From Xanthocytophaga agilis (lineage in GTDB: Bacteria; Bacteroidota; Bacteroidia; Cytophagales; 172606-1), in assembly GCF_030068605.1 (NCBI RefSeq), contig NZ_JASJOU010000012.1:62001-126000 (forward strand): DNA of 64,000 bases, given 5' to 3'. A program made the translations under genes and the position numbers. Below, one piece after another: positions 4,256 through 61,150 of the stretch. Under the pieces are notes generated by a model that saw only the letters and a list, made by a program, of their open reading frames with translations, was not told the origin of the DNA and ran no database searches. Every line of letters starts with the position of its first letter. Positions within the stretch are counted from its first letter, which is position 1.

Positions 4256-4387
4256 TAACCTAAACTATATGCATGAATTTTTTTGCAGTTAATTCCACAC
4301 AAGCAGCATGCCTGCGATTAATTCTGTTCAAAACAATTTCTTACAGTTAATTGTATGCATCAGCAAATTTGCAGTTTACCTTATGTA
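4256..4387. repeat. Array of 18-bp dyad units at 28-29 bp pitch (array D)
   Basis: Five 18-base units start at 4256, 4284, 4313, 4342 and 4370 (steps 28, 29, 29, 28). Examples are TGCGATTAATTCTGTTCA at 4313 and TACAGTTAATTGTATGCA at 4342. A weaker sixth may start at 4397. The geometry equals that of the arrays at 21388, 54977 and 60992; the sequences are the most diverged of the four. It occupies the gap between convergent genes, before the terminator at 4503. Confidence 0.5.
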
Positions 4388-12927: not shown

Positions 12928-12967
12928 AAGTAAAAGGTCTGGATGTTTTTCCAGACCTTTTACTTTT
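12926..12967. terminator. Perfect 18-bp-stem bidirectional terminator
   Basis: Arms 12926-12943 and 12950-12967 are exactly complementary, with a 6-base loop and a GGTCTGGA/TCCAGACC core. The left arm overlaps the radical SAM stop codon, and the site lies just beyond the end of the convergent gene at 12982. Confidence 0.85.
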
Positions 12968-12981
12968 GCATAATGATTGTA

Positions 12982-15900
12982 TTAAAAGTCATATCCTAGA
13001 GTCAGATAATAGCTGGGCTTGGGATTAGCTACAAAATTTTCAACTCCCCATGCTACATCAAATTTGATATAATAACCAAACAATAGTGTACGAGCGCCCG
13101 CTCCATACCCAATCAAAAATGGATTTTTAAAGTCGGTGACAACAACCTCAAAGCCGGTGCCTGGGATATATCGTGTGTTCAAACTATTCTGACGACTAAA
13201 TGGAGAGGCTCCCGTCCATGCTGTACCAACATCTGAAAAACCAACTAACTGTAGGTTTTTAAAGAAATTGGAAGTGATAGGACCCCGATAGAAGTAACGT
13301 ACAATAGGTAAACGTAACTCTGCATTCAATAAAAGGAAAGATTGACCTGAAAGCTTATTATATGGGAAACCCCGAAGATTAGTGGCAAATTCATTAAATA
13401 GAATATCGCGATTATCGGTTCCCTGTGCTATTGTCAATGGATCGTTCTCAGGTCGGGCATCTGTACTGTTAAAAGCCCAGTTATCCATTCCTCCCAACAG
13501 ATATTGTTTAGGTGCTCGTCCGCCATAACGTCCATAGGCCAAACGTGTTGCTAGAATAATATCCCGATGAACTTCCTGATAATGGCGAACATCCACACTT
13601 ATATTGTCAAAGCTTCTGGCACCTGGGTTGGATATAGTTCCTTTGTCTGCTATACCTCTGTTATTATCATAACGCACTCTAATTCGGGTTCCTTCTGTCA
13701 TATTTAACCCATTCACTATTGTATTGTCAAATACATATTCGAATCGAATGCCTGCATATCCTGTAGTTGCAATAGGAGGAGTTACACTGGCACTATATTG
13801 TGCTTCTACAAAACGCGTAAGCATCAAAATAGGAGATACAGAGAAACGACTTGAGACACTTAATGGATAAGATGCTGTAAATTGAAGTTTGTGTAAATTA
13901 TAACGTTGAGTAAAACTCACATTATTCTCGGAAGGATTAAAATAGTATGTCTTCTTATCATAGCGTATTCCAAAGTCAATACGTTTTTTTATGTATTGAT
14001 ACTCTCCATAGAAATTGCTGCTTGAAAGATCAAAAAATCCTGTCAATCCTCCTTTAAACTTATGATCTTCTAATACTTCATTCATCAATACATCAAATGT
14101 AATTCCTAGGTCCCGAATAGGATCAATGATAAAAGATGTTACTGTGTTATCAACAGTAAAGCGTTGCTGGTATTCATGTGGCCCATTGATCTGAAGCGCT
14201 TGTTTTTTTGTGTTGCCTTCTGTAACAGTAGCTACAATGCTGCGTGTGGGTTCTTTTGCTGATTGCTTTTTGGTGTCTGCATCAAACTCATAATTATCTG
14301 TGTCTACTTCACCAGGTTCTAATACCAGTTGATCTTTAGGAGGTGTTGGAACAGGTGTTTCAGGAGTAGGTGCTGTTTTTGTATCTCCTGTGTTTATATT
14401 TTTGTTAAGCTCTGATTTGTCTATGAGAAGTTCACTGCGTTTGGTTTGGATAACCTGCTTGGCAGAAGATAAATCAGATTGATTACTATACCCTACAAAT
14501 CTACGTTGGTTGTCTAAAATGGTGTATGCTAGGCTACTGTCAGAGGGATGAATGTCATAAGAGAGAAGACTTTGCCGGAAAGAAGTGACGGGCTGAACAT
14601 TACGATTGCTTATGTGATAACGGTAGAGATGATTAATTCCTGTGATATCATTCAGAAAATAAATATTGTTTCCATTAACAACAGGTTGTGTCTCATTTCC
14701 TGCTGTATTTACAATCCGTTGTAACATAGTTGTTGATTGAGCAGGATCATATATAAACAAGTCAAAGTGAGGTGTTACAGTTTGAAATGAACCTTTATCT
14801 GTTTTTAATGAATCGCTGATACGATTAGAACTAAATACAAATGCATTCGATGATTCTCCTATAAAGCGTGGGTTCAGATCATCATATAAATCCTCTGTAA
14901 TTGTGGTAATAGCTCCCCTGCCAATATCATATAAGAATATATCGTTTTTACCATTGCGTACAGCACTCATTATTAATGTACGACCATCCGACGATACATC
15001 AAAGTCCTTAACCTGAGTGAAACTTTTTAGAAATTTGCGGTTAACCAGACGGTTATAAAAAGGCTTGGTCATATCATAAACACTGACTACATATTCTCCA
15101 GCTTTGGCATGTATTACAACTACCTGATTATTATTGCGCCAGCCAATGAGAGGTATCTGTTCATCAAAGCGTTGATTGATAGTGCGATATCCCCCTGCCA
15201 TCAAAGTGGTGCGCTTTGAGGTTTTTACATCTTTGGCATACACTGTATAACGGCCATTATAGTTTTCTGAATAAGCAACTAATTTTCCATTAGGGCTGAT
15301 CTTTACCTGATTATAGTCATACTTATTCCGACTATTTTTACGGGCACGCATATCCTCCCTTGGCATTGTGTAAGTATTGATGATAGGTACATTCATAGTA
15401 GTATAGAAATTCCTCCATTCTTTAAGGAAATTACTATAGGGATATACACCTAATGTACTTACAATGCTGCTTTCTTCATTACGGATAATACGGGTAAGAT
15501 TAAGAATATTCGAAATGTTGGATTTTCCATACCGCTCTGCTATATAGTTCCAGATAGACTGACCTACCAGCATAGCATCTTCTCCGGTAAGAGTAGACGG
15601 CCTTTTGAGATTTTTATGTACAATCATATCTCGTACAAAGTCATCCATTTCTGCTCCCCAACCTTCTGCCACATATGCAGCTGCTCCTGATACAAACCAT
15701 TCAGGGAGAGACAAAAGATAAGAGCTTTGTACCATATCTTTCAGACTACCGCCAAACATCATCTCTGTAATAAACATGCGGGAAATTCCCAAACTTAGTT
15801 CACGCTTGAAATTAACAGCACTTCCGGTATAGGCAATTTCAACTCTGGATTTAACAAAATTGGTTTGTCCTCCTACCAGTGTAATGTCATTATTCAGACC

Positions 15901-16212
15901 AACATTACTTTGCTGAAGATCTGTAATGGAGTTGTAAATAAAGATCTTTGTTTTGGAATAAGGTGTATAGCCCAACAGATCTGCAATGCGATCAAAATCC
16001 GATTCAACATGACGTGCAGCAAAATAAGCTTGTTCGTTACCTTCCTGGTAATAGTATACTTCAAAATTGGTTGTAGTAATTACCTTCCAGTTAAAGTTCT
16101 TGTATTGAATCCGGTTTTTACCAAAAACATCCAATGCAGTTTGTGAATAGGCATCAGAGAAAAAAAATACTAAAAATATTATAGTAACAAGTAGTTTGTA
16201 GACAGCCTTCAT
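12982..16212 (-). CDS. Large exported protein: inactive peptidase-MA-like domain, TolB-like propeller, BamA/D15-like barrel
   Basis: 1076 residues if started at 16212, where MKAVYKLLVTIIF makes a good signal peptide; an ATG at 16221 adds three residues. Residue numbers here use the 16221 start. After the signal (to about 27) comes a peptidase-MA-like region (about 35-260) with KIFIYNS and LPEWFVSGAAAYVAEGW. The expected HExxH reads RELSL (140-144), so both zinc histidines are lost. About 290-600 is a PD40/TolB-like propeller (KISPNGKLVAYSEN, DVSSDGRTLIMSA). The final 380 residues look like an outer-membrane beta-barrel ending in LGYDF, with an NLRGF motif resembling the Omp85 RGF/Y loop. A role in outer-membrane assembly or surface binding is inferred. 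Confidence 0.75.
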   Translation of the reverse strand: MKAVYKLLVTIIFLVFFFSDAYSQTALDVFGKNRIQYKNFNWKVITTTNFEVYYYQEGNEQAYFAARHVESDFDRIADLLGYTPYSKTKIFIYNSITDLQQSNVGLNNDITLVGGQTNFVKSRVEIAYTGSAVNFKRELSLGISRMFITEMMFGGSLKDMVQSSYLLSLPEWFVSGAAAYVAEGWGAEMDDFVRDMIVHKNLKRPSTLTGEDAMLVGQSIWNYIAERYGKSNISNILNLTRIIRNEESSIVSTLGVYPYSNFLKEWRNFYTTMNVPIINTYTMPREDMRARKNSRNKYDYNQVKISPNGKLVAYSENYNGRYTVYAKDVKTSKRTTLMAGGYRTINQRFDEQIPLIGWRNNNQVVVIHAKAGEYVVSVYDMTKPFYNRLVNRKFLKSFTQVKDFDVSSDGRTLIMSAVRNGKNDIFLYDIGRGAITTITEDLYDDLNPRFIGESSNAFVFSSNRISDSLKTDKGSFQTVTPHFDLFIYDPAQSTTMLQRIVNTAGNETQPVVNGNNIYFLNDITGINHLYRYHISNRNVQPVTSFRQSLLSYDIHPSDSSLAYTILDNQRRFVGYSNQSDLSSAKQVIQTKRSELLIDKSELNKNINTGDTKTAPTPETPVPTPPKDQLVLEPGEVDTDNYEFDADTKKQSAKEPTRSIVATVTEGNTKKQALQINGPHEYQQRFTVDNTVTSFIIDPIRDLGITFDVLMNEVLEDHKFKGGLTGFFDLSSSNFYGEYQYIKKRIDFGIRYDKKTYYFNPSENNVSFTQRYNLHKLQFTASYPLSVSSRFSVSPILMLTRFVEAQYSASVTPPIATTGYAGIRFEYVFDNTIVNGLNMTEGTRIRVRYDNNRGIADKGTISNPGARSFDNISVDVRHYQEVHRDIILATRLAYGRYGGRAPKQYLLGGMDNWAFNSTDARPENDPLTIAQGTDNRDILFNEFATNLRGFPYNKLSGQSFLLLNAELRLPIVRYFYRGPITSNFFKNLQLVGFSDVGTAWTGASPFSRQNSLNTRYIPGTGFEVVVTDFKNPFLIGYGAGARTLLFGYYIKFDVAWGVENFVANPKPSYYLTLGYDF

Positions 16213-16395
16213 ACAATACATAATTATTTACAGTCGCACATTTGCATTCATAATGTAGCATTGGGCAATCTACCTATGGGAGGAATAGTGAAAAAGGGTA
16301 AGATGTTTTGTATCAACAAATACTCTTTTCAGGCCTGAACACAGGATTCATACCTGTATGCTAATGAATGATAAATGTTGTTAGTGTACAATCCT

Positions 16396-17466
16396 TTATT
16401 TTTTATACAACGAAAGATAACGATTAATGTTGATTTCAGGCATGATTTCTTTTTGAAATAATAAGAAATCAATAAAATGTTGTGCCAAATACGGTATTAA
16501 AGAAACTCCTTTACTACCCATACCCCCAAAGAATGCCAATTCTGGATGTTCTGGATGTGTGCCAATAAATGGACGTCTATCTGCTGTAGCCGGACGGATT
16601 CCTGCTGAATGATCCAGGATATGTACAGGTCTTTGAACAAGTCGGGATAACTTCTCCAATAATTCTGCCTTACCTGATTCACTGGGCTGCCAGTCAAGAG
16701 TACGCCAGTTATAAGTTGCACCTACACGAAAAGTGCCATCTGGTAATGGAATAACGAATAAATGTTGGTTAATAATATAATTTGTTACAAAATCATCAAT
16801 AACTACATGTAGTACCTCTCCTTTAACAGGACGAAAAGGAAGCCAGTTGAAGAATAGATTCTCAGTAGCATAAGGCCCTTCACAGAATATTATCTGTTGT
16901 GCTGTGACATCCTTATACTGAACTTTACTTCCTGAAAACTGTATTTGAGTATGATCCAGTCTATGATTGTATACAATACCAATTTTGTCAAAATACTCAT
17001 GACAGGCTGATAAAAAAGATTTGACATTTAGATATCCGGCATGGTGAATAAGCATTCCACCATAGGGCGCATTGACAGCAGTTGATATAGAGTTGTCGTC
17101 TTGGCAGATTTCTGCAAAACGAGCAATATCAGGTTGGGATGTTTCTGCTATCCATGTATTTTGCTCCTCAATAGAAATAAAAGGACGATAAATAGTGGAA
17201 GGATAAAAAAAACGACTGTTAAGAATGGCTTCCTGTTCTGTATAGAAGTTCTCCAAAAACGGAAATAATGTTTCTGCCTGCCAGGTTTTGCTCATCTTTC
17301 GTCCTGTAATAGGATTGTAAAGCCCGGCAGCTACAGCAGAGGCAGGTTTCAGTTCTCTATCACTAAATAAAATTATTTTTTTTTGTTGTTTTAGTAAGGT
17401 TAGTGCCAATACAGAGGCTGCTAATCCTTGCCCAACGATCAGGTAATCTAGGTCTTTATGAGTCAA
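16396..17466 (-). CDS. FAD-dependent oxidoreductase (DAO family, MnmC-C-terminal-like), TTG start
   Basis: 356 residues from a TTG codon at 17464-17466; no ATG lies nearby and the start falls just before the Rossmann strand. DYLIVGQGLAASVLAL (about 7-22) binds the FAD ADP moiety (GxGxxA), and SAVAAGLYNPITGRKM (about 43-58) matches the second conserved loop. Toward the end, HSAGIRPATADRRPFIGTHPE and FGGMGSKGVSLIPYLAQ are typical of DAO enzymes and closest in style to the oxidase half of MnmC, which acts on modified tRNA uridine. The methyltransferase half is absent, so a free-standing amine or amino-acid oxidase is equally possible. Confidence 0.8.
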   Translation of the reverse strand: MTHKDLDYLIVGQGLAASVLALTLLKQQKKIILFSDRELKPASAVAAGLYNPITGRKMSKTWQAETLFPFLENFYTEQEAILNSRFFYPSTIYRPFISIEEQNTWIAETSQPDIARFAEICQDDNSISTAVNAPYGGMLIHHAGYLNVKSFLSACHEYFDKIGIVYNHRLDHTQIQFSGSKVQYKDVTAQQIIFCEGPYATENLFFNWLPFRPVKGEVLHVVIDDFVTNYIINQHLFVIPLPDGTFRVGATYNWRTLDWQPSESGKAELLEKLSRLVQRPVHILDHSAGIRPATADRRPFIGTHPEHPELAFFGGMGSKGVSLIPYLAQHFIDFLLFQKEIMPEININRYLSLYKK

Positions 17467-17661
17467 TAGGTTACAATTTTTTATAAGATAAATAAGATTG
17501 GTTTGCTTGAAAAAGTAAAGAGTAATAATGACTCACAACCTGTTTTTTTTGTAAATTTCCATACTGTGCATATTTACCTTACTTCCATTTTCTCTACAAA
17601 TTAAGTAATTTGCTGATGTATTGCTAAGCTATGTGTGATACTATGAACTCTTATTACTTTT

Positions 17662-18882
17662 ATGCAAACAAAACCATTTAAGAAAAAACTTTCAAGAAAG
17701 TTAAAAAAAACCTATTACGCTTTAACTGGTAAAGTAAAGCCTAAGAGTGTGGTTGCATTATCGCTTGAAAATGCTCAAGCTGCATATGGTTCACGTTCAG
17801 ATGTTTCTATTCATAGATTCTTCCTGGAGAATGAGTTTGAACTGAAAAAGCCTAAATTTCTTGCGGAAGATGCTGTTTTCAAAGGCTATAAGTCAACATT
17901 CCCCACTAAGGGTGCTAATTATGATGCTGTATTGCTGGAAATTCGCAATCCGAATTTCTCTTTTCAATATAATCACCTGGTAGATGATGAAAACCGACCT
18001 ATTTATGAACCAAGAGTTCGGTTTGATGAGTTACCTATTCAACATGAATATCTGCTGGACCCTCCAAAAATAAGTGGAACGGTTGCCTATTTCTCAAATA
18101 CGGTTCCTAATCAGTATGGACATTGGTTACAAACTCAATTGCCTTTGTTATTGTCTTACTGGGAAACATTTGGCAAAGAGAATATAGATTATTATTATAT
18201 TGGTGAATGTCCTATTGTTGATTTCGTGGAAGAGTCTTTTGCTAAGATGGGAATTCGCAGAGAACAGATTATCAATTTCTCCTGTAGGGCAGATCGCTCC
18301 CTGATATCTATGAAGTTTCGGGATATTGACAAAATAAACTCAATGCGTACTGGTTTTGAGCTGGACAGCCATAGCGTCCAATTCTTACAAAAGAATCTGT
18401 TTAAGCCCGCAACTCCAGCATACGAAGGTCAGTTCGCAAAGAAAATATTTGTGATGAGAGGAAATGTGAAATTCCGGAAAGAGTTAAACCTGCCAGAAGT
18501 AAAAGCTGCACTGGAACCACATGGATTTACATTTGTAAGTATGGAAGGTAAGACCATGCAACAGGAAGCAGATATCTTTGGAAATGCAGACGTAATTATT
18601 GCAGTACATGGATCTGCACTTCATAATACTATCTTCTCCCGTCCAGGAACAAAAGTAGTAGAGATATTTCCATATGACTATTTCGAAGCCTCTAACTTCG
18701 TAATCAGTAATTATGGTGGTTTTGATTATTACTATATGATTGGAGAGCCTTTAGGTAGTGATACTAATCCTAATACTTACGAAGATAGAAATATAACAGA
18801 TATCCGTGTAGATGCTAAAAAGCTCATTCGCCTGTGTGAAGAAGCTGATATTCTGGCTGGAGTGACATCAAGTGTTGTGTAA
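17662..18882 (+). CDS. Glycosyltransferase family 61 protein
   Basis: 406 residues, cytosolic by sequence, with a strongly basic N-terminus (KKKLSRKLKKTYYAL). The GT61/DUF563 core is recognised by GTVAYFSNTVPNQYGHWLQTQLPLL (about 139-163), in which the His-Trp segment is conserved, FVMRGNVKFRKELNLPEV (about 263-280), and above all DVIIAVHGSALHNTIFSRPGTKVVEIFP (about 311-338), the signature near the nucleotide-sugar site. It probably transfers a pentose or hexosamine to a polysaccharide or glycoprotein. It is isolated, with no polysaccharide cluster beside it, and ends at a strong terminator. Confidence 0.85.
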   Translation: MQTKPFKKKLSRKLKKTYYALTGKVKPKSVVALSLENAQAAYGSRSDVSIHRFFLENEFELKKPKFLAEDAVFKGYKSTFPTKGANYDAVLLEIRNPNFSFQYNHLVDDENRPIYEPRVRFDELPIQHEYLLDPPKISGTVAYFSNTVPNQYGHWLQTQLPLLLSYWETFGKENIDYYYIGECPIVDFVEESFAKMGIRREQIINFSCRADRSLISMKFRDIDKINSMRTGFELDSHSVQFLQKNLFKPATPAYEGQFAKKIFVMRGNVKFRKELNLPEVKAALEPHGFTFVSMEGKTMQQEADIFGNADVIIAVHGSALHNTIFSRPGTKVVEIFPYDYFEASNFVISNYGGFDYYYMIGEPLGSDTNPNTYEDRNITDIRVDAKKLIRLCEEADILAGVTSSVV

Positions 18883-18911
18883 ATACTATAAAACATAATC
18901 GGAATTTTCTT

Positions 18912-18943
18912 AAAACCGTGTAGGGTAACTACACGGTTTTTTG
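18912..18943. terminator. Bidirectional terminator
   Basis: Perfect 12-base arms AAAACCGTGTAG and CTACACGGTTTT around GGTAA, followed by T-rich sequence. The right arm encodes the last codons and stop of the convergent DUF2851 gene. Confidence 0.88.
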
Positions 18944-20212
18944 TTTTACTAATGAAACTCCAATAGGGCAGCTTAAACACCTATGCTCACAACAAGAGTG
19001 ATTGTATAGTTCTATACTCGCCTGAGAATCAAATGCTGTACGAATATCCAATCCGGTTTCCGATTTCCACAATCGTGTGATTTTATTGTTTTCCGAAGGT
19101 AGTCGCTCCAATAAAAAAACTGCATGCTCAATATATTGATGCTCGTTCTTGATCTCTGCATAAGCTGAAAGAAGTGGTACAACACTATTAATCAAAAGAT
19201 TGTGTTGACTATCCTTTCCCAAAGAGCCTTCGTGATTACTTTCTTTGCCAAAATGGTAATGCTTTTGCCAATAAGCGGAAGGAGTAATATCCATGAGAGT
19301 CAGGATCTCTTCTGGTTTTTGCAGAGAAAATAAGGAAGAAAAAAGTGATTTCTTCTGATAGATTAACATCGCCAACTGGGCAATGCGGAGAGTAGGAAAG
19401 TTGGCTGGTCGCAGACGCAGAAATTTCCACTGAGCGGCTGTTATTGTATTATGCAGCTGATACTTGTGCTTCAGGAATATATACTCTCGCCTTAGATCTT
19501 CTACATATGAATCGCCGCTTTGTAAGGGAATAAGTCCTGCCTGACCAAATAGGAGAGCTTCTATCTGGAGTAATGAGTTGGCATGTTTGTATAAGATCTT
19601 GAGTGGCAATGATTGAGCGAGTGAAAGCATAGGTTCACTGTTAATCTTAAAACCAAATGCATGTGCAAGAACCTGATAGGCAGTTTCATCCCAATGTTGT
19701 TGACTGTTCTGATAAAGTTCTTTGACAAAAATGGCTTTCGTATGAAGACGACTCATTAACGCCTTGTCCAATGCCTGACGTCTATGAATATTCTTAACTG
19801 CTGAAAATTGAGAGGCACAGGCTATAGGAGCCATATTTTGCAGTAAGGTCTGGTATCTGGAAAGAAGGTTTTTGTCTGTATGGGATTCTAATATAAGGAC
19901 AGGGATTTCTGTACCATCCGGATGGTGAACAGATAAGTTGTGTTCCCATACTACATGCAACACCACATTTTCATATGCCTTATCCTGTTGATGACGATGC
20001 ACCTGCCAGTCAGATGACCGTAGGTGCATCTCTATATTGCCTGCCCATTCGATGCCTCCAACAACAATACGTGCTTGGGTAAAATCAGGACCTGCATCAG
20101 AATTGTAAATTCCAGGTTTGATAACCTGAAGCTGTCGGCCATCTGTGGTTTGTAATCCTTGGGTACTGAAGTACTGAAACTGCCATAAAAAATGTAGAAA
20201 TGACTCCTGCAT
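18929..20212 (-). CDS. DUF2851 family protein
   Basis: 427 residues, full length for this Bacteroidota-specific family. The N-terminus MQESFLHFLWQFQYFSTQGL, then VIKPGIYNSDAGPDFTQARI and WAGNIEMHLRSSDWQVHRHQ, is the family hallmark; the run of acidic residues and the EMHL-SDW-H pattern resemble a nuclease-like core, but the function is not established. The C-terminus carries a cysteine cluster CCEHRCLSCPIG (about 411-422), suggesting a metal site. No signal peptide is present. It stands alone, convergent with the GT61 gene. Confidence 0.85.
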   Translation of the reverse strand: MQESFLHFLWQFQYFSTQGLQTTDGRQLQVIKPGIYNSDAGPDFTQARIVVGGIEWAGNIEMHLRSSDWQVHRHQQDKAYENVVLHVVWEHNLSVHHPDGTEIPVLILESHTDKNLLSRYQTLLQNMAPIACASQFSAVKNIHRRQALDKALMSRLHTKAIFVKELYQNSQQHWDETAYQVLAHAFGFKINSEPMLSLAQSLPLKILYKHANSLLQIEALLFGQAGLIPLQSGDSYVEDLRREYIFLKHKYQLHNTITAAQWKFLRLRPANFPTLRIAQLAMLIYQKKSLFSSLFSLQKPEEILTLMDITPSAYWQKHYHFGKESNHEGSLGKDSQHNLLINSVVPLLSAYAEIKNEHQYIEHAVFLLERLPSENNKITRLWKSETGLDIRTAFDSQASIELYNHSCCEHRCLSCPIGVSLVKQKTV

Positions 20213-20339
20213 AGCAACAAAAAATAGATTTATCGAATTGCTTATAAAAGAGCATCTTTATAAATGTAAAAATGCCTTTTGCTTTTATTCGATAGTTTTC
20301 AATTCTGTAACCTGTTAAAAGATCTTTTATCTAAGCAAT

Positions 20340-21218
20340 TTATTTTACTTCTTTGATACGATTGGGATAATCTGTGATAATTCCGTCTACTCCCCAATCC
20401 TTTAATCGTTGCATGTCAGTCACTTCGTTAACCGTCCAGGGAATTACTTTCATCCCTAATGCATGTATATTTTCTACCTTGTTTTTAGTAAGAAGTAGTT
20501 TGTAATAAGGACTATAAATTTGAGGTGTAAATCCGAGATCTGCTAGGTTATTTTCAACGGACCTTGGATTAGCAACTAAAGCTGCCAAGGTTACTGTAGG
20601 ATATTTTTCCTTCCAGTACTTAAGCACTCGGAAGTCAAAACATTGTAACGTAATTCGTTCAAGAGGTACATATTGCTTGATTATCTGGTAGACCAGGTTT
20701 GAAAACTCACTAACTTCGGGATGAAAAGTATTATCACCTTCTGGAGAACTCTTAATTTCGATATTATAATGAACAGGTGGTAATTTTTTCTCCTGACAGT
20801 ATTTCTCTGCAAGCTGGAATACTTCACTGAGTAGAGGCTTGCTAACTTTCAATTTCTGTTGTTCCGGGAAACCTTTATTCCCTTTTGAGCCACAATCAAA
20901 GGATTGTACTTCTGTATAAGTGAATTGATAGATGTTATATTGCTTTTTGTCAGAGGATACACTTTGTCCTGTTTTATCTAGACAGATGTCTGCTGAGAAA
21001 AAAGGCTCATGAGAGACAATGACTTGTTTGTCTTTGGTAATTACTACATCCAGTTCCAATGTAGTAACTCCTATTTCCAGTGATTTTTGAAATGCTGGAA
21101 GACTATTTTCAGGCATAATGCCTCTGCCTCCACGATGGGCCTGCCAGTCAAAGGTAGATTGGCTGTATGAGGTTAGGATAGTGAAGAAAAATAGCAAATA
21201 AAGAAATGAATATTTCAT
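20340..21218 (-). CDS. Glycerophosphodiester phosphodiesterase, exported
   Basis: 292 residues with a signal peptide (to about 20). The GDPD active site is complete: HRGGRGIMPENS with His28, Arg29 and Glu37, LELDVVITKDKQVIVSHEP with Glu55, Asp57 and His70. The TIM-barrel closes with VIPWTVNEVTDMQRLKDWGVDGIITDYPNRI, the standard family ending. It hydrolyses glycerophosphodiesters such as glycerophosphocholine to glycerol 3-phosphate and an alcohol in the periplasm, using a divalent metal. The region upstream of its start carries array A (21388-21639). Confidence 0.92.
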   Translation of the reverse strand: MKYSFLYLLFFFTILTSYSQSTFDWQAHRGGRGIMPENSLPAFQKSLEIGVTTLELDVVITKDKQVIVSHEPFFSADICLDKTGQSVSSDKKQYNIYQFTYTEVQSFDCGSKGNKGFPEQQKLKVSKPLLSEVFQLAEKYCQEKKLPPVHYNIEIKSSPEGDNTFHPEVSEFSNLVYQIIKQYVPLERITLQCFDFRVLKYWKEKYPTVTLAALVANPRSVENNLADLGFTPQIYSPYYKLLLTKNKVENIHALGMKVIPWTVNEVTDMQRLKDWGVDGIITDYPNRIKEVK

Positions 21219-21387
21219 AGATGAATAGGTTTTGTATGTGGATTGGCAAGATTCATCTAAAAAGTCAAAGTAGTGTCACATTCTATTTTAAGAAAGTATG
21301 AAGTTTTAACTCATTCTTCTACCTTTCATATTAGAAGAATGGTAAGTAGGTATAAAAATCCGAATAAATTTTTAATCATTTTCGAGA

Positions 21388-21639
21388 ATATCAAAATTCT
21401 GATATTTTTCAACTCTGATCAGTATTTCGATATATTGGAAAAATGACCAGAATTCCAGTCAAACTTAAAAGTGAACAGAGTTGAGGTCAAACAGAGAAAT
21501 GACCATTATTCGAATATTTTTGTGAATTGATCGGTATTCTGGTCAAAACAAAAAATGATTCAAATTATGGTCAAAAATAATTGGGATAGAAGCTTACATA
21601 TAATTGATTTCAATCTTCTCATGAACAGAATTCTGGTCA
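21388..21639. repeat. Array of 18-bp dyad units at exact 28-bp pitch (array A)
   Basis: Seven 18-base units start at 21388, 21416, 21444, 21472, 21500, 21528 and 21556, each exactly 28 bases after the last; an eighth lies at 21622. Examples: TGACCAGAATTCCAGTCA (21444), TGATCGGTATTCTGGTCA (21528), TGAACAGAATTCTGGTCA (21622). The idealised form TGAnCAGAATTCTGnTCA is a palindrome. The unit at 21388 replaces TGA/TCA ends by ATA/TAT on both sides, keeping the symmetry. Spacers are 10 bases and mostly A-rich. It fills the 441-bp gap 21219-21659 between two leftward genes; I find no ORF there. Confidence 0.75.
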
Positions 21640-21659
21640 AAAGGTAGTTTGAGACTTAT

Positions 21660-22670
21660 TTACTTTGGTGAGAGATGTACTACCTCTTCAAGAAATTTAG
21701 TTGTGCCATTTTCTACACTTTTCCAGTCTTTGGAACGAATATATGATGCAATGACATGATGGCCTGTTTTAGGAAAAGCTTCTTTTCTCTTTAAAGCTGT
21801 AGAGGTTCCCAACTGATCAAACATCTCCAGCATTTTAGGAACAGATACTACCATATCCTGTTCCTTCTCATTTTTATAATAATAGGCCAGATATACCGGA
21901 CATTTTATTTTAGCAAAAGTATCCTGATTGAGTGCCGCTTCCATAAAACTTTGTAAGACAATAGGCCCTTGAATAGTATATTGTGCAGACCAATATTTTT
22001 GTTCCAGTGGATTTTCTCTTTGATAGGTTATATAATCTGATCCTAACAGTGAGCGCATGATTTGCTTTCCCCAAGGCCCATTCATTAACGTCGCTTTATC
22101 ATCGTAGAGGCGAATAGCTGGTGAATATACTATCAATGCGGTTATTTCCGGGTGCTCTGAAGCAAGGTAGAGAGAAAGACCAGCCCCAGCAGATGTGGAA
22201 AGAATGATAACTTTATTTCCAAGTATTTTGGCAATAGCTAGTGCTTTCTTGGCCGAAGCCAGGTAGTTTTCAGGTGTGAGGTTCTGAAAGGTATTTTTAT
22301 TGCTGATACCATGATCCTGAAGACGGGCCAGATATAGATTGGCTCCGTATCGGCGAGCCAGATCTGTGTGTACTGGTGCTCCTTCTGCCTGACTGGCTCC
22401 AAAGCCGTGAATGTATACAAAGCTATAAGTAGTAGGTTGTTTATGGAGAGAATCTGCCCAGATAATACGGGCCTGATTGTCAGGTTTAAGATAAGGAGTT
22501 TTTTTTTCTGTTGTATTAATTTCTTGTTCCAGCTTACTTAAATCTGTTGTAACAGAAGGTAGTTGAGTATCCAGAATAGGATCAGAGGGTTTGGGACCTA
22601 CTACATAACTAATAGTTAGTAAGAAGATAAATCCTGCTGTCCATTTAGCAATACGTTTTAACCATTTCAT
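21660..22670 (-). CDS. Alpha/beta hydrolase (serine aminopeptidase S33/carboxylesterase-like)
   Basis: 336 residues. A signal peptide or membrane anchor (about 7-24, WTAGFIFLLTISYVVG) precedes the hydrolase domain. FVYIHGFGASQAEG (about 83-96) is the oxyanion-hole HGF loop, KVIILSTSAGAGLSLYLA (about 153-170) contains the nucleophile elbow as S-T-S-A-G rather than GxSxG, PVYLAYYYKNEKEQDMVV should hold the acid residue, and KTGHHVIAS the catalytic His. The family includes monoglyceride lipases and esterases; the substrate is unknown. It ends just beside array A and no terminator hairpin is evident. Confidence 0.8.
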   Translation of the reverse strand: MKWLKRIAKWTAGFIFLLTISYVVGPKPSDPILDTQLPSVTTDLSKLEQEINTTEKKTPYLKPDNQARIIWADSLHKQPTTYSFVYIHGFGASQAEGAPVHTDLARRYGANLYLARLQDHGISNKNTFQNLTPENYLASAKKALAIAKILGNKVIILSTSAGAGLSLYLASEHPEITALIVYSPAIRLYDDKATLMNGPWGKQIMRSLLGSDYITYQRENPLEQKYWSAQYTIQGPIVLQSFMEAALNQDTFAKIKCPVYLAYYYKNEKEQDMVVSVPKMLEMFDQLGTSTALKRKEAFPKTGHHVIASYIRSKDWKSVENGTTKFLEEVVHLSPK

Positions 22671-22742
22671 TTTAATGCGGCGCTTTTTCGGGTAAGATAT
22701 AATTTTTCTTTAAGCTGTAATGGCACATAGAATGTTGAAAAT

Positions 22743-22785
22743 ATAAAAGGACTCCATATGTATGTATTCTATGGAGTCCTTTTAT
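22743..22785 (-). terminator. Intrinsic terminator after the HtrA-like gene
   Basis: Perfect 16-base arms (22743-22758 and 22770-22785; core AAGGACTCCATA/TATGGAGTCCTT) with an 11-base loop. It lies 17 bases beyond the end of the protease gene on the minus strand. Confidence 0.8.
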
Positions 22786-22801
22786 GTAACTGTAAAACTG
22801 G

Positions 22802-23728
22802 TCAGGCAGCCTGTGCTGTTGGATAAATACCAATATCCAGTTTCTGTGTATTGCGTAACACTTCCAGCTTAGACCATTTCTCGATGCGGTCTTTGTTTAA
22901 TAACTTAAACAAGTCATGAGACGTCTGAATCGAAGTGTTTTCAAAACCAATAATAATATCTCCTTCCTGAAGCTGGGATCGTCTCGCAGGCGAATTCTTC
23001 TCAAGAGAGACCACCAATAAGCCTTTGGTCGTTTTCAGATTGTAGAAGTTAACAATACGGGGATTGATAGTAATTTCCTGCAACATAATTCCCAAATAGG
23101 CTTTGCTAACTTTACCTTCTTTGATCAGATGACCCGCAATATCTTTAGCTGTATTGATGCCAACTGCAAAGCTAAGTCCCTGGGCTTCCCGTATCACAGC
23201 TGTATTAACGCCTATAACTTCACCGGTAGCGGTCACCATAGGGCCACCTGAGTTTCCTGGGTTAAGAGCCGCATCACTTTGAATCACATTATCAACCAAA
23301 CGGCCGGAATTAGTTCTCAGCGTTCGACCTAAAGCACTGACAACTCCTGTTGTAACTGTGTGCTGATAGCCATATGGATTACCAATAGCAATTACCAGTT
23401 GTCCAATACTTAAAGCCTCAGAGTCTCCGATTTTAGCTACAGAGAAGCCATTAGCATATGTCTTTATAACTGCCAGATCCGTATCCGGATCTTCACCAAC
23501 CAGAAATGCTTCAGATTCAGATCCATCAAGCAGCGTAATAACAATCTTATCCGCTCCATGTACTACATGGCTGTTTGTAAAAATTAATCCGTCGGAAGAA
23601 AATACAAAACCGGAACCAGACCCGACTAGGATCATTTTTTCATGCTGTCGTTTAAATATATCTATTTTAACTACTGCATTTTTTATCTGATTCACAGCAT
23701 CGACAACGATGTTAGAAAATGCATCCAT
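22802..23728 (-). CDS. HtrA/DegP-like trypsin-type serine protease with one PDZ domain
   Basis: 308 residues. The S1C catalytic triad is intact: His54 in TNSHVVHG, Asp84 in DTDLAVIK and Ser160 in NPGNSGGPM. The AIGNPYGYQHTVTTGVVSALGR loop is standard. Residues about 205-300 form a PDZ domain (YLGIMLQEI, LLVVSLEKNSPARRSQLQEGDIIIGFE). No signal peptide or membrane segment precedes the protease domain, which is unusual for the family, so it may be cytosolic; no better upstream start was found. It should degrade or chaperone unfolded proteins. It is monocistronic. Confidence 0.88.
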   Translation of the reverse strand: MDAFSNIVVDAVNQIKNAVVKIDIFKRQHEKMILVGSGSGFVFSSDGLIFTNSHVVHGADKIVITLLDGSESEAFLVGEDPDTDLAVIKTYANGFSVAKIGDSEALSIGQLVIAIGNPYGYQHTVTTGVVSALGRTLRTNSGRLVDNVIQSDAALNPGNSGGPMVTATGEVIGVNTAVIREAQGLSFAVGINTAKDIAGHLIKEGKVSKAYLGIMLQEITINPRIVNFYNLKTTKGLLVVSLEKNSPARRSQLQEGDIIIGFENTSIQTSHDLFKLLNKDRIEKWSKLEVLRNTQKLDIGIYPTAQAA

Positions 23729-24167
23729 TTTAAAAAGAATTTGATGAAACCAAGCTAACTGCCTCTGTTTCTTGAGGTATTTAGGTAGTAATAGTAGTTA
23801 CCTGCAATTTCGTATCCAGACCATATAAAATAGCTATTCTGACAAGATTGAAATGATTTTGGGAAGAAAGGTGCCTTTTTGTCAGTTATACTATTTTGAT
23901 TAGCCTCAGTATTGATCGTAATTAATAGTGCTTATAGTCAGAAGGTTACAGGAAAATCCCTTTGCTGAGTACTTCCGCTGTACATGTCTACTTATCTGAC
24001 AAGCAGATGATTTCCACATTTAACTATAACCTGAATTTGCAAAGGGACAAGCATCAGTTACCTAAGCTTTTTGCAGTCTTTCTCTAAAACTTAGATATGT
24101 AGTATATCCAGAGAAAAATCTCTATTCGACAGGTTGGAAGATTGTAGATTTACATCCTTAACAGTAT
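23729..24167. other. Divergent intergenic region, 439 bp
   Basis: Separates the HtrA-like gene (leftward) from the surface operon (rightward), so it should carry both promoters. I see a -7-like TAGATTTA at 24145-24152 but no well-placed -33. Distant complementary 9-mers TCCCTTTGC (23957) and GCAAAGGGA (24039) could fold over 73 bases. No ORF is supported. Confidence 0.3.
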
Positions 24168-24173
24168 TTGATT

Positions 24174-26411
24174 ATGAGACAATTACACCAAAAGGTTTGG
24201 CTTGCAATAATAACGGGGGTTTTCTCTGTTTTTATTGTGACTGCACAGACCAATTCGGTGGGTATTGGCACTCCTTTCCGGACGCAGGTACCTAATACGA
24301 ATGCCGTATTACATCTGGAATCAGATGCGAACAAGCCACAGGGGTTTCTAATGCCACGTATAGATCGGACAAAATTCGTTGGACTTACTTCTGCTGAAAA
24401 TGGGTTGATTATCTATGATCAGACAGATAATGTATTTTATTATTGGTTGACAAACCGATGGGTAGCTGTTGGTAATGGTGGTGGTAAAGAAGCCTGGACA
24501 TCAGGAGCAGGTAATCCGGATAATAGCATAGGAAAAGAAGGTGATTTCTATTTTAATACATTGACTAATATACTATACCGAAAAGGGTCTTTAGGCATAT
24601 TTGAAGAGTTATTCAAACTTGGATATACAGCTGGTGCAGGTATCTCTATCAATAATGGAATAATTAGTAACAGTGGTGATCCAAATGCAGCAGATGATAT
24701 TACCAATGAAACAGAGGCAGGTGGTGATTTAACAGGTAAGTATCCTAATCCCACATTGTCATTGAAAAGTGTGACAGCTGAAAAAATTGCCCCTGCTACT
24801 GCTGGAAATATGCAGCTAGTAACCAATGGAAGCGGGGTAGTTGAATGGGTACCTACAACAACTACAGCTATAGGATTGAATGAAATAGCAATTGGCAATG
24901 GAGCAGGTGTTAACAATGTGATTGTAAGTCAGGATGCAACTTTAGCATCAGATGGTAAACTTACTGTAACCGGACTAGTAGGTAAACCGCTAAATACAGG
25001 AATTAATCCAACTGCCAATCAGGTTCTTATCTGGAATGGCAGCCAATGGACTTATGCAGATATTTCAACAATCGCTACTCTTACTGGCGATGTAAAAGGA
25101 ACACTGTCTGGAACGAAGGTAACTGCTTTGCAAAACTATCCGGTCGCGAATGTTCTACCTCAATCTGGTAGTTTTCTGCAATGGAATGGATCTGAATGGA
25201 TTCCATCTGAGATAGTGCTTGGAGGAGATGCAATGGGAAGCTTTGATGATGTAACAGTTTCACGTATACAAAATCGGGACATAGCTAATACAACACCTGC
25301 CAATGGACAAGTACTAACCTGGAACAGTGTGCTTAATAAATGGGAACCTGCTGCCGTCCCTACTACTGCTTTGCCTAATACGGCTAATGGCGCATTGCTG
25401 ATTGGAAACGGAAGCAGTATCAACACAGCTGTTATGAGCCAGGATGTAACCTTGACTAGTACAGGAAAAGCAACAGTAGTAGGACTTCAGGGAAAAGCAA
25501 TTTCTCTTACCTCTCCTGTTAGTGGACAAGTATTGATTTATAATGGATCTCAATGGAATAATAGCACACTTTCTGCTAGTGGAGATGTAACAGGATCTTT
25601 GGGTAGCACTACCGTAACCAGGCTACAAAATCGGAGCGTGGATGCTTCAACTCCTTCCTCTAATGATGTCTTAACTTGGAATGGTTCACAATGGACACCA
25701 AAACCTGTTCCTGTCTATTCATTACCCAATACAGGTAATGGCAATATTCTTATTGGCAATGGAAGTACAGTTAATAATGTCACTATGAGTCAGGACGTAA
25801 TGCTGGCTAGTAATGGCAAAGCAACTGTGACAGGGTTGCAAGGTAAAATAATAGATAGTAGTGTATCTTCTCTAAGTACGGGTGATGATGGGAAGGTTTT
25901 AACATGGGATGGCACGACTAATAAATGGACTCCAAAGTCAGCATCTGCTCTTATCAAATTGGAGAATCAGAGTTATGCTACTGCTCAGACAAGATACTAT
26001 AGTGTAGATCCTACCGAGTTTGTCGAAGTAAATACTTCTCCAACTAGTATTAAATTTAATGGTGTAAGAGGAGGAGAGATATCATCCGGTTCAGGATCTG
26101 ATACCTATATAGTAGCACCTTTACACTTGCCACACGGAGCTACTGTGACTGAGATTACCTTTCTATGCTTTGATAATACTACCAGCCAGGATATTACCTT
26201 TTACTATACCCGTAATAGCCTGACCGGATCTACATCGGATGTGGGTTCGGTAAGTTCATATGGAAGCTCGGGTAGTCAATCGATTGTCTACTCTGCGAAT
26301 GATGTGGTTGATAACCAGAATTATTCTTATAAAGTAGCAGCTGTGTTGAATGATAATGCACAGCAGGTATATGGAGTACGGATCAAGTATACAGTAACCA
26401 AGCCCGATTAA
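24174..26411 (+). CDS. Exported repeat-rich surface protein, tail-fiber-like
   Basis: 745 residues from the ATG at 24174 (a TTG at 24168 is less likely); signal peptide to about 25. The segment NAVLHLESDANKPQGFLMPR followed by GLIIYDQTDNVFYYWLTNRW (about 45-100) is the head common to Bacteroidota fiber-like surface proteins. Three copies of a unit IGNG-x-NxV-MSQDxxLxSxGKxTVxGLQGK begin near residues 240, 408 and 526, separated by NGSQW-type units (VLIYNGSQWN, VLTWNGSQWTPKP). The last 130 residues look like a separate beta-sandwich. No type B sorting domain is seen. First gene of the surface operon, 20 bases before the next. An adhesive role is inferred. Confidence 0.7.
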   Translation: MRQLHQKVWLAIITGVFSVFIVTAQTNSVGIGTPFRTQVPNTNAVLHLESDANKPQGFLMPRIDRTKFVGLTSAENGLIIYDQTDNVFYYWLTNRWVAVGNGGGKEAWTSGAGNPDNSIGKEGDFYFNTLTNILYRKGSLGIFEELFKLGYTAGAGISINNGIISNSGDPNAADDITNETEAGGDLTGKYPNPTLSLKSVTAEKIAPATAGNMQLVTNGSGVVEWVPTTTTAIGLNEIAIGNGAGVNNVIVSQDATLASDGKLTVTGLVGKPLNTGINPTANQVLIWNGSQWTYADISTIATLTGDVKGTLSGTKVTALQNYPVANVLPQSGSFLQWNGSEWIPSEIVLGGDAMGSFDDVTVSRIQNRDIANTTPANGQVLTWNSVLNKWEPAAVPTTALPNTANGALLIGNGSSINTAVMSQDVTLTSTGKATVVGLQGKAISLTSPVSGQVLIYNGSQWNNSTLSASGDVTGSLGSTTVTRLQNRSVDASTPSSNDVLTWNGSQWTPKPVPVYSLPNTGNGNILIGNGSTVNNVTMSQDVMLASNGKATVTGLQGKIIDSSVSSLSTGDDGKVLTWDGTTNKWTPKSASALIKLENQSYATAQTRYYSVDPTEFVEVNTSPTSIKFNGVRGGEISSGSGSDTYIVAPLHLPHGATVTEITFLCFDNTTSQDITFYYTRNSLTGSTSDVGSVSSYGSSGSQSIVYSANDVVDNQNYSYKVAAVLNDNAQQVYGVRIKYTVTKPD

Positions 26412-26431
26412 TAGATTCAAAAAATTGTTCT

Positions 26432-27607
26432 ATGTGTTTTGTATCTAAAACTTTACTGGTTGGATTGGTTGGTATGTTCTGTATCAATACATCTCCTGCT
26501 CAGATCCTGAATCAGGGGCAGGTGATTGCATTTACACAGGGCTCTGTAATGACTACAGGAGATATTACTAACCAGGGAGAGATCGATAATCAGGGTGAAA
26601 TATATAGTACTGGCAACTGGAAGAATATCGGAATTTTTAAAGAACGGACAGGGGAAGTACATTTTATAGGTGCATCTGAACAAAAAATCCAACACAAAGG
26701 ACAATCCTTTTATAAGCTGCTCACTGCTGGTGGTACTAAAGTGCTGGAAGATAGTTTGAAAGTAATCAATCAGCTGGTGTTTACAGATGCGATACTTCGG
26801 GTACAGCCAGGTAGTTTATTGCTAATGCGTAAAACCGCTTCCATCAATGGCGCTTCAATGAATGCTTACATTGATGGCCGACTGTATTGGGAAGGGACGC
26901 ATCCGCGATTTTATCCGGTTGGTATGAATGAATTATATGCCCCTCTTTGGTTGAGTGAAGAACCTCAGTCTGAAATGGAGCCAATAGTTGGGATCAACCT
27001 CTACCAACCTGCTATAGACGGATTATTCGATAGTAGCCTGAATAAGGTCTCAGGTGTGCGTTATTGGGAGCGAACTGTATTACAGGGAAAATCTGAGAAT
27101 GCCTATGCCACACTGAGTATCCTGGAAGATGAAAATATACCAGAGATAGATTCCGCAGTAGTAGCGGGGACTTCCGATTTGACCATTCCTTTTTATAATC
27201 TGGGACAGCAAGAAATAATAGGAAGTATTTATAATGGAACAGTAAAAAGTTATGAGTATGCGAATAAAAGATGGCTGGCTGTTGGACTGAATGCCTCAAA
27301 TAGGTCAGGATTGGTGTATATGCCCAATGCATTTGCACCTTCATCTCCTAATGAGGAAGAGAGAGTGTGTAAAGTATACGGAGTAAATCTGGCCAGGGAA
27401 GGGATGACACTCACCATTTATAATCGATGGGGCAATGTTGTGTTTCAGAGCCAGTCTTTTGAACAGATTACAAAGTTTGGATGGAATGGTATGAATCAAA
27501 ATACTCACACAGAAGAAGTCGGTGGTACATACACTTATACATTACAGGGAAGATTTGTTACAGGAAAAGGATTTCAAAGGCAGGGGACTATTACACTGAT
27601 TCGTTGA
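26432..27607 (+). CDS. T9SS type B sorting-domain (gliding-motility-associated) surface protein
   Basis: 391 residues; signal peptide to about 24 (INTSPAQ). The N-terminal part has stacked short strands (TGDITNQGEIDNQGEIYSTGNW, about 43-64) suggesting a beta-helix. From about 295 comes the sorting domain: VYMPNAFAPSSPNEEERVCKVYG, MTLTIYNRWGNVVFQSQSF, FGWNGMNQNT and GGTYTYTLQGRFVTGKGFQRQGTITLIR, the CHU_C type B pattern including YNRWG. Such proteins leave through the T9SS and stay attached with a SprF partner, here encoded directly downstream (27677). Confidence 0.88.
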   Translation: MCFVSKTLLVGLVGMFCINTSPAQILNQGQVIAFTQGSVMTTGDITNQGEIDNQGEIYSTGNWKNIGIFKERTGEVHFIGASEQKIQHKGQSFYKLLTAGGTKVLEDSLKVINQLVFTDAILRVQPGSLLLMRKTASINGASMNAYIDGRLYWEGTHPRFYPVGMNELYAPLWLSEEPQSEMEPIVGINLYQPAIDGLFDSSLNKVSGVRYWERTVLQGKSENAYATLSILEDENIPEIDSAVVAGTSDLTIPFYNLGQQEIIGSIYNGTVKSYEYANKRWLAVGLNASNRSGLVYMPNAFAPSSPNEEERVCKVYGVNLAREGMTLTIYNRWGNVVFQSQSFEQITKFGWNGMNQNTHTEEVGGTYTYTLQGRFVTGKGFQRQGTITLIR

Positions 27608-27676
27608 TAAAGCAAACTATCAAACTAAAACTATTTTTCATTTCGCTGCTCAAAACAAATATTTTAACTCATCTCT

Positions 27677-28729
27677 ATGAGATTTCGGATGTTGGTTTTC
27701 TGGATTACTTCAATGTGGCTGGTAGAAACGATACAGGCACAAGATCCGAACTTTTCACAGTTTTATGCAGCCCCTTTGTATCTTAATCCTGCCTTGGCAG
27801 GAGTAGAGAAAGATGTTACATTCTCTGCCAATTTCCGTTCGCAATGGAGAAGCCTTGGCTTTCCTCAACAAATAGGGCAGTTCTCAGGAATATTTCCTTT
27901 ACATAATCGGCGTTATCCAGTTATACAATCCGGAGGGATTGGTTTTTCTATTTACAATGATCTTTCTGGAGAGGGAAATAATTTCAGGACCACAGGTATT
28001 CAGGCAGGAGCAGCCTATAATCTCGTCTTGTCAAGAGATTATGCACACATAGTAAGCTTTGGCATGCAAATAGGAATGATCCAGAAAGCTATCGATTTTA
28101 CAGATCTTCGCTGGGGATCACAATACAATGCAGCAGCTCCGTTTTTTGGATTTGATTACACAGTAGCTCCAAGCATTACTACAAACCTAATGCGGGATAA
28201 AGCATTATATCCGGTAGTTCATTCTGGTGTAGTCTGGCATTTTAATCCAGACCGTGTTCACTATAGTAGGCCATTCAGTAGCTTTATCGGTTTTTCTGTA
28301 TCTAATCTGAATCGCCCGGATGAATCACTTATACGAGGAGAATCAAGCCAACTACCTCTATTATTCCGCATGCAGGGAGGTTTTAATTATGAACTATCTC
28401 CATCCTTTAAGATAATGCCAAATATACTCTGGATGAGGCAAAACGGTAATAATCAGATTAATGCAGGGACTTACTTCTCCTATGAAATGACTTCATCTGA
28501 AACACAAAGTCCGGCACAGATTATGGCTGGAGCGTGGTATCGGATTCAGGATTCATTCATACTCTCTGCTGCAATTAGCAATTCAAAATATACACTAGGA
28601 TTTAGTTATGATATTAATACCTCCTCACTTCGCTATACAAGCAGGGGAAGAGGTGCATGGGAGTTGTCATTAACTTACAGAATTATAAAAAACAAAGCAG
28701 CCAGAAGGTTTTCGACACCTTTATTATAG
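27677..28729 (+). CDS. PorP/SprF-family T9SS outer-membrane protein
   Basis: 350 residues. The signal peptide (to about 22) is followed by DPNFSQFYAAPLYLNPALAGV, the clearest hallmark of the PorP/SprF family, and a barrel of about 14 strands ending in LSLTYRII. Unlike the paralogue at 4565-5839 it has no SPOR-like tail. SprF-type proteins are needed for export or anchoring of a cognate type B cargo, which fits the gene order cargo (26432), PorP/SprF, OmpA-like (28812). Confidence 0.92.
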   Translation: MRFRMLVFWITSMWLVETIQAQDPNFSQFYAAPLYLNPALAGVEKDVTFSANFRSQWRSLGFPQQIGQFSGIFPLHNRRYPVIQSGGIGFSIYNDLSGEGNNFRTTGIQAGAAYNLVLSRDYAHIVSFGMQIGMIQKAIDFTDLRWGSQYNAAAPFFGFDYTVAPSITTNLMRDKALYPVVHSGVVWHFNPDRVHYSRPFSSFIGFSVSNLNRPDESLIRGESSQLPLLFRMQGGFNYELSPSFKIMPNILWMRQNGNNQINAGTYFSYEMTSSETQSPAQIMAGAWYRIQDSFILSAAISNSKYTLGFSYDINTSSLRYTSRGRGAWELSLTYRIIKNKAARRFSTPLL

Positions 28730-28811
28730 ATAAGAGATAAAAGTAAAAACATAGAAGGATAGAAAAGAAGAATTTCTATTAAAAAAAGTAAAGTAAAAAT
28801 ACAGATAGCGT

Positions 28812-54936: not shown

Positions 54937-54976
54937 GATTTTCCATCTTGTGCATAGCTCTATTCAATCAGCAGTT

Positions 54977-55203
54977 TGTGGTGAATTCCGATCGAATTTT
55001 GTTTGTGTGGTGAACTATGCGCAAGATGAAAAAGTGATCGGAGTTCTGATCAAAAAATGTTTTGCCGTGAGTTATGCGCAAACAAAAAAATGAACAGAAC
55101 TCTGTTCAAAATAAAAAGTGATTGGAGTTGTATGTAATCCCTTCATTGCTTAAACAGATTGACTTATCTTTTCAAAAAAAGTTTTTGCAGCGAACTATGC
55201 GCA
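54977..55203. repeat. Array of 18-bp dyad units at 28-29 bp pitch (array B)
   Basis: 18-base units start at 54977, 55006, 55035, 55063, 55091, 55119 (steps 29, 29, 28, 28, 28) and 55186. The clearest are TGATCGGAGTTCTGATCA (55035) and TGAACAGAACTCTGTTCA (55091; arms TGAACAGA/TCTGTTCA perfect). Alternate units belong to a second type ending in ACTATGCGCA or GTTATGCGCA (55006, 55063, 55186). Spacers on this strand are A-rich. It fills most of the 472-bp gap between the symporter terminator and the TonB receptor, with no ORF supported. Confidence 0.65.
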
Positions 55204-60991: not shown

Positions 60992-61150
60992 TAAATGGAT
61001 TTCTGATCAGAAGATGTTTTAACCAGAGTTTTGATCATGTGGGAAGAAATATCAAAATATTGATTATATTTTACAATTATCAGAATTCTGATTGTCCCAC
61101 AAAAGTATCAGAACTCTGATAATCGTTTTATTTGAACTAAACTCTGGTTA
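60992..61150. repeat. Array of 18-bp dyad units at 28-29 bp pitch (array C)
   Basis: Units start at 60992, 61020, 61049, 61077, 61105 and 61133 (steps 28, 29, 28, 28, 28); a weaker one may start at 60966. The best are TTATCAGAATTCTGATTG (61077) and GTATCAGAACTCTGATAA (61105; inner arms TATCAGA/TCTGATA perfect). Two spacers contain complementary words, TGTGGGA (61038) and TCCCACA (61095). It fills the gap between the convergent genes ending at 60917 and 61210, where I see no ordinary terminator. Confidence 0.7.

Follow-up and report, generated by a model that had tools for sequence, protein, structure and literature searches.

Dispersed arrays of 18-bp dyads on a 28-bp grid in two Xanthocytophaga genomes: BIME-like elements with a putative dimeric binding protein

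In accounts of the REP and BIME elements of E. coli and others, BIMEs are described as binding IHF and gyrase (PMC2817692), and the REP unit as carrying a tag, GTAG or CGTC, at one end (PMC3733652). The arrays reported here resemble REP/BIME as high-copy, intergenic, palindromic units gathered in mosaic clusters, and in being sited between unidirectional or convergent genes. On the other hand, this tag is absent from the arrays by eye, and the array units read TGA...TCA or TGC...GCA. The units are 18 bp long on a fixed 28-bp pitch, without compensatory pairing, and no cognate RAYT was found, PF01797 having no match in X. agilis and X. flavus. A REP/RAYT origin was rejected, because no Y1 transposase was found in either genome by this search. 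In location, copy number and mosaic structure the arrays are BIME-like, but they lack the tag, a detected RAYT and the compensatory stems and are not members of REP/BIME; we class them as a variant of the dispersed intergenic palindromic repeats.

Small interspersed repeats besides MITEs include ERIC, RUP, BOX and Correia elements, and the arrays share with MITEs and these repeats the short, dispersed, noncoding copies of a common layout. Unlike MITEs, the arrays have an internal 28-bp grid of dyads, and a terminal inverted repeat with a target duplication was not found. Iterons, parS-type arrays and centromere-like arrays are regular rows of dyads as well. These are present as one or a few, whereas 31 arrays of at least three units were counted in 1.1 Mb of X. 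agilis, and no partition or replication gene was found when nine proteins of the window were examined (two of them without a Pfam match). A regular pitch and partly palindromic units are also seen in CRISPR arrays; judged by layout, the present arrays differ in their units, which vary within an array, in their 10-bp A/T-rich spacers and in their dispersal. In a Xer dif-like site, a 6-bp core separates the two inverted arms. A relation to such sites, prompted by the word TGCGCATAA, was rejected: the dif pattern from E. coli gave 7 + 3 matches in X. agilis at up to 3 mismatches, as compared with 6 + 8 for the control, and the half-sites of the array dyads abut without a core. Dyad arrays at 28 bp were not described in the literature titles and abstract openings that were searched.

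The window, i.e., the whole 64,000-nucleotide stretch of X. agilis DNA that was analyzed, lies on contig C12, and a window coordinate is the C12 coordinate minus 62000. Array A is located between two minus-strand genes, one for a GDPD-domain protein and the other for an alpha/beta-hydrolase-like protein (Table 1). A sequence-only reading of the window had described seven units of array A at a pitch of exactly 28 bp and an eighth at 21622; these positions were confirmed, and the eighth unit starts 66 bp past the start of the seventh. The three further arrays that it had announced in the window were found as well. A matrix was derived from 122 off-window units, themselves found with a window-seeded matrix, and with it chains were present in all four window arrays. 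Array A gave one chain of six units (21416-21573), in which six of the seven grid units were recovered, and at other pitches from 20 to 40 this matrix gave chains of 3 at most. The first matrix, built on the array units themselves, scored 68 bits at a pitch of 28 as compared with 30 bits or less at other pitches from 24 to 33. The possibility that shuffled sequence gives similar runs was not borne out, because 100 dinucleotide-shuffled versions of the window gave chains of 2 at most (seen in 2 of the 100) against the six-unit chain of array A. A chance origin of the arrays was ruled out by these shuffles and by the reversed-pattern control described below. With a generic dyad comb, which takes symmetry without sequence, 28 bp was not the best pitch and symmetry alone was not significant; strict dyad pairs numbered 0-2 at lag 28, too few to reveal any pitch. 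Two units of array A call for qualification: the unit at 21500 is asymmetric and the unit at 21388 is weak by the matrix. The former is not palindromic, yet it is identical in 16 of 36 anchored rows (itself counted). The latter pairs in the alignment with ATATCAGAATTCTGATAT of the type-1 copies, where its centre and 3' end are reached by 9 of 29 copies and its first base by one.

Table 1. Arrays of the window, units of array A and neighboring genes, in window coordinates
Feature	Position	Strand	Sequence or unit type	Remark
Array A, unit 1	21388..21405	+	ATATCAAAATTCTGATAT	weak match, 1.2 bits
Array A, unit 2	21416..21433	+	TGATCAGTATTTCGATAT	6.9 bits
Array A, unit 3	21444..21461	+	TGACCAGAATTCCAGTCA	22.3 bits
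Array A, unit 4	21472..21489	+	TGAACAGAGTTGAGGTCA	14.9 bits
Array A, unit 5	21500..21517	+	TGACCATTATTCGAATAT	asymmetric; 4.7 bits; repeated in many copies
Array A, unit 6	21528..21545	+	TGATCGGTATTCTGGTCA	20.2 bits
Array A, unit 7	21556..21573	+	TGATTCAAATTATGGTCA	12.4 bits
Array A, eighth unit	21622..21639	+	TGAACAGAATTCTGGTCA	terminal dyad; 21.6 bits
Type-2 array	54949..55136	-	TGATCGGA-type half-sites in alternation with TGCGCATA/TGCGGTGA-type ones	seven units at 28-29 bp
Further array	60992..61150	n/a	TTATCAGAATTCTGATTG-type units	five units, one empty grid slot
Short array	4256..4330	n/a		three units, two exactly 28 bp apart
GDPD domain gene	20340..21218	-		left of array A; array A upstream of gene
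Alpha/beta hydrolase-like gene	21660..22670	-		right of array A; below Pfam cut-off; 3' end toward array A

Beyond the view of the first reading, array A proved to be a single copy of a dispersed repeat whose unit order is conserved. The pattern TGAHCRGARTTCTGRTCA with up to 3 mismatches matched the X. agilis genome (9.77 Mb) 384/386 times on the two strands, as compared with 35/30 for the reversed control. When 59 genomes were searched with up to 2 mismatches, X. agilis gave 147/152 (control 0/4) and X. flavus 147/135 (control 1/1), and each of the other 57, five of the same family included, gave 10 matches or fewer per strand (1/0 in a congener, 72% complete). The first reading had proposed the presence of such arrays in related genomes as a test, and its outcome is split: X. 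flavus has them, and the other 57 genomes do not stand out. In some members of the order single sites were more numerous than in the reversed control (G003, 10/10 vs 1/2; G048, 10/9 vs 0/0; G054, 8/4 vs 0/0), and no two sites were on one grid among the places listed for G048, G054, G039 and G012. An exact-pattern scan of public genomes returned 42 stretches. Half of them (21) are from X. flavus and hold chains of 2-8 units; the 21 from other organisms exceed the roughly 8 expected by chance, but hold chains of 1 unit and once 2. The same geometry with other words was looked for in 200 kb each of G003, where lag 28 gave 0, and of G004, where lag 28 gave a modest 68 (mean 15, sd 29) and lags 14, 12, 21 and 84 were higher. 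Viral carriage was dropped, as viral contigs gave 0 matches. The nearest genome is X. flavus (flava) YF14B1, which is 94% identical over positions 12500-32000 of the window and holds 25 arrays of at least three units in 0.95 Mb. Scaling from both genomes suggests a few hundred arrays in each; this is a rough estimate, since contigs with known matches had been picked.

There are at least two array families, each with a kept unit order. Using array A as the type-1 query, at least 49 matches (itself counted) in at least about 40 separate places were obtained in X. agilis at 68-88% identity, a lower bound from 40 scored of 116 first-look candidates, and at least 43 in X. flavus, where 40 of 113 candidates were scored. 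The type-2 query gave at least 46 and at least 45 matches, respectively. The window array at 54949-55136 belongs to type 2, C12:116975-117204 matching the type-2 query at 83%. The dyad site is 18 bp long with the outer consensus TGAnnnGAnnTCnnnTCA and TGC...GCA variants, and the spacers are 10 bp and A/T-rich. In type 2 a TGATCGGA-type half-site is followed by a TGCGCATA/TGCGGTGA-type one, and a non-periodic lead of about 65 bp was seen by eye. A conserved lead (..AAGGCAAGGCA..CTGTTCAATCAATGAAGAGATTGC) is located ahead of the 28-bp grid in type-2 copies, e.g., C12:226664-226730. The eighth unit of the first reading is a terminal dyad common to many type-1 copies: in the alignment by eye it is at the matching offset in many of them and the similarity of the copies stops there, and 17 of 36 anchored type-1 rows have a unit within 2 bp of this offset. 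Among the copies within the genome, conservation of type 1 was 0.885 for outer positions, 0.797 for inner positions and 0.704 for spacers (29 copies), and that of type 2 was 0.845 for arms vs 0.718 for spacers (36 rows, with the query itself included and one locus counted twice).

Scattered copies with a common order and a shared terminal dyad are also what a relic of a non-autonomous, MITE-like mobile repeat would leave, in which the dyads were once the sites of a lost transposase or recombinase and the copies are mostly decaying. Conservation among copies would then mirror what could still move. The ends of type 2, which are not sharp, look similar when inverted (by eye), as expected of such a repeat; against it, neither a target-site duplication nor a clean empty site was found, and the missing Y1 transposase counts on the same side. 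We regard a relic as rather unlikely, and as a serious rival to the protein-binding model set out below.

The arrays are placed behind genes. In X. agilis, 0 of 28 arrays were in divergent gaps, as compared with 69 divergent among 213 gaps (P=6.7e-6; gaps of at least 250 bp in C5, C12 and part of C1, with 3 of 31 arrays outside such gaps). The X. flavus stretches gave 0 of 24, a result that is not independent of the former. Among 82 distinct X. agilis arrays, drawn from C5, C12, part of C1 and 60 fetched loci, 31 were convergent, 44 tandem, 1 divergent, 5 unresolved and 1 within an ORF. This placement suggests a role at the ends of transcription units; avoidance of divergent promoters would also be expected of any tolerated insertion, and thus of a relic repeat. 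In tandem gaps the A-rich strand was sense or antisense equally often (14:13 and 9:8), which argues against a strand-specific RNA role. The sole array of the 82 scored as divergent (locus L214, C1 near 1520843) lies between genes for a PadR-family regulator and an ABC ATPase, and inverted and repeated runs of GGGTAAGAAGGGT / ACCCTTCTTACCC are found close by (L214:1135-1420). PadR-type dimers may be one class of candidate binders.

To compare the rates of change of sites and spacers between the two species, orthologous arrays were aligned. In the first test, with 19 pairs, the arms (143/1704, 8.4%) and the spacers (65/723, 9.0%) showed no difference, and pure neutral drift was suggested. With 50 pairs of the 82 arrays, the rate of change was 6.6% for arms as compared with 9.2% for spacers (P=1e-4). 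When the arms were divided, the outer positions were at 5.0% (144/2865), the inner positions at 9.2% (211/2288) and the spacers at 9.2% (212/2296), and nearby noncoding DNA was at 7.1% (347/4886). The slow-changing outer positions are TGA....GA..TC....TCA. Among the 41 pairs that were large enough, the outer rate was below the spacer rate in 31, above it in 8 and tied in 2. Under six schemes of unit selection, one of them taking all grid slots, the outer positions stayed at 4.2-5.2% and the spacers at 8.8-9.2% (P<2e-7 each). Pure neutral drift is therefore disfavoured by the 50 pairs whatever the choice of units. A neutral simulation with detection bias gave 8.5% for outer and 8.8% for inner positions, and such bias accounts for little of the gap between them. 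The arms as a whole are not below the flanks including coding sequence (825/13151, 6.3%). At G/C positions the outer sites changed at 6.4% vs 10.8% in nearby noncoding DNA; at A/T positions the values were 4.3% and 5.3%, which is not significant (P=0.10). The inner positions changed faster than nearby noncoding DNA (P=0.002). The slowness of the outer positions relative to the spacers, which arose after insertion, speaks against decaying relics.

The changes were also clustered to different degrees, with variance/mean values of 1.51 for inner words, 1.16 for outer positions and 2.26 for spacers. An old tandem repeat without function, homogenised by recombination among units and copies, would account for the clustered change of inner words relative to outer positions, a clustering that the spacers show too, and for the unit-sized length differences between the species at C12:28767 and C5:232063. 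However, recombination tracts should take the spacers along, whereas the spacers differ more than the arms among copies as well as among orthologs, and the order of the units is retained across dispersed copies; we consider this explanation improbable. In 4 of 269 units there were 5 inner changes between the species, as compared with 0.2 expected from a Poisson distribution, so that the inner letters of a dyad change as a group; in one of the four, at C12:117091 (window 55091), the outer bases and the spacer are unchanged.

The arrays are mostly shared at orthologous sites. For 18 of the 23 arrays of at least three units on C5 and C12, the fetched X. flavus sequence contains a syntenic site, and 16 of these 18 sites hold arrays, which weighs against a relic of a mobile repeat. 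The site of C5:478919, occupied in X. agilis and array-free in X. flavus, is on the side of such a repeat, but the entire gap differs there and a duplication is not visible. The array missing in X. flavus is C5:478919-479050, and its counterpart there is near 524063 of C55, as counted on the joined stretch (the contig position is larger by 20000). This X. flavus site has 101 bp and contains a long hairpin without relation to the array (AAATAAGTAAAATCCCACTAAGAA and its inverse), which may belong to another repeat family.

The first reading had offered two options, a multi-site protein-binding array or a transcript of serial hairpins. The former is the better supported, whereas hairpins with preserved pairing found no support. 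Serial or nested hairpins in RNA, serving as a 3'UTR stabiliser, a terminator or a source of small RNA, or else cruciforms, would agree with the folding of array A relative to shuffles (z -4.4 and -3.4 for the + and - strands, respectively) and with that of type-2 copies (mean z -2.5 and -3.0), but good folding of array A on both strands is to be expected of rows of palindromes. Complementarity between units exceeded shuffles for unit 3 vs unit 4 (z 3.6) and v3 vs v5 (z 3.2), a measure that is confounded by subfamilies and whose 36 rows contain shifted frames of some arrays. On the - strand, one terminator-like match was found (21444-21461), as compared with 0.1 expected. Across all 168 units there is covariation at dyad positions 2 and 3 (z 3.8 and 6.3), which we read as reflecting the TGA/TCA and TGC/GCA classes. 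Against hairpins, RNAalifold found almost no consensus structure in the 36 type-2 rows, and complementarity within the dyad was not generally above shuffles: at 15 matching slots, three were mildly above (v1, v6 and v7; z 1.3-2.4), and u4, u5, u7 and v5 were clearly below. The joint change of both unit ends noted earlier in one copy is not general, as the left and right arms do not covary in their inner letters (117 pairs vs 113.8 in shuffles at positions 4-7 of 57 TGA-type dyads, z 0.56). Between the species, 95 single changes break a pair, 82 make one and 7 double changes lead from pair to pair. The excess of G-T over A-C mismatches was only weak (105:83 in X. agilis and 104:76 in X. flavus), and Rfam 15 gave 0 matches at the gathering score in the window. 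Together with the even strand orientation, these results make hairpins quite improbable, and an RNA element of fixed strand was rejected for its want of orientation bias and of consensus structure.

Slow dyad ends, free inner letters, lack of compensation and lack of strand preference are the pattern expected of a dimeric DNA-binding protein, and rows of sites for such a protein would fit the sequence data better than serial hairpins. Our preference, held tentatively and with less than even confidence, is that the family of array A consists of lineage-specific, dispersed, BIME-like elements whose dyad rows are bound by a putative dimeric protein. This protein would read the outer bases of the dyad, each dyad probably taking a single dimer. 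With a helical repeat of 10.5 bp, a 28-bp step corresponds to 2.67 turns and an 84-bp step to 8; neighboring dimers would be about 240 degrees apart around the helix, so that the sites wind round it and suit a coat rather than a platform on one face. The row of dimers may constitute a nucleoprotein patch where transcription units end, with a possible role as a topological or transcriptional boundary or as a nucleoid anchor. The element would have spread as a repeat before X. agilis and X. flavus split and would mostly have stayed in place since. Several points are counted against protein binding: the lack of a difference in the first 19 pairs, the rate of the arms as a whole relative to the flanks, the comparison of outer sites at A/T positions and of inner positions with nearby noncoding DNA, and the folding of array A. 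In addition, the half-sites vary more than is the norm for one strong regulator, and adjacent sites at 28 bp are not on the same face of the helix. A wider version of the protein-binding reading, a chromosome-wide nucleoprotein system in which a few hundred mobile-born dyad rows behind transcription units are coated by a putative dimeric protein that recognises TGAnnnGA half-sites and leaves the inner letters free to vary, or even drives their diversity, is speculative, and we think it unlikely as a whole. If the rows are bound, they would represent a chromosome-organising element of the BIME kind in Bacteroidota genomes in which no REP transposase was detected, and comparison of the two sister genomes would provide a direct test; should they be relics, they still document a dispersed repeat whose fixed-pitch architecture is unusual.

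Synteny breaks were within 300 bp of an array in 5 of 14 cases as compared with 2.1 expected (P=0.015), a weak signal in which one of the breaks is a 57-kb gap. An inversion of about 150 kb relative to X. flavus has an array at both of its ends (C5:276184-279925 and 426495-429035).
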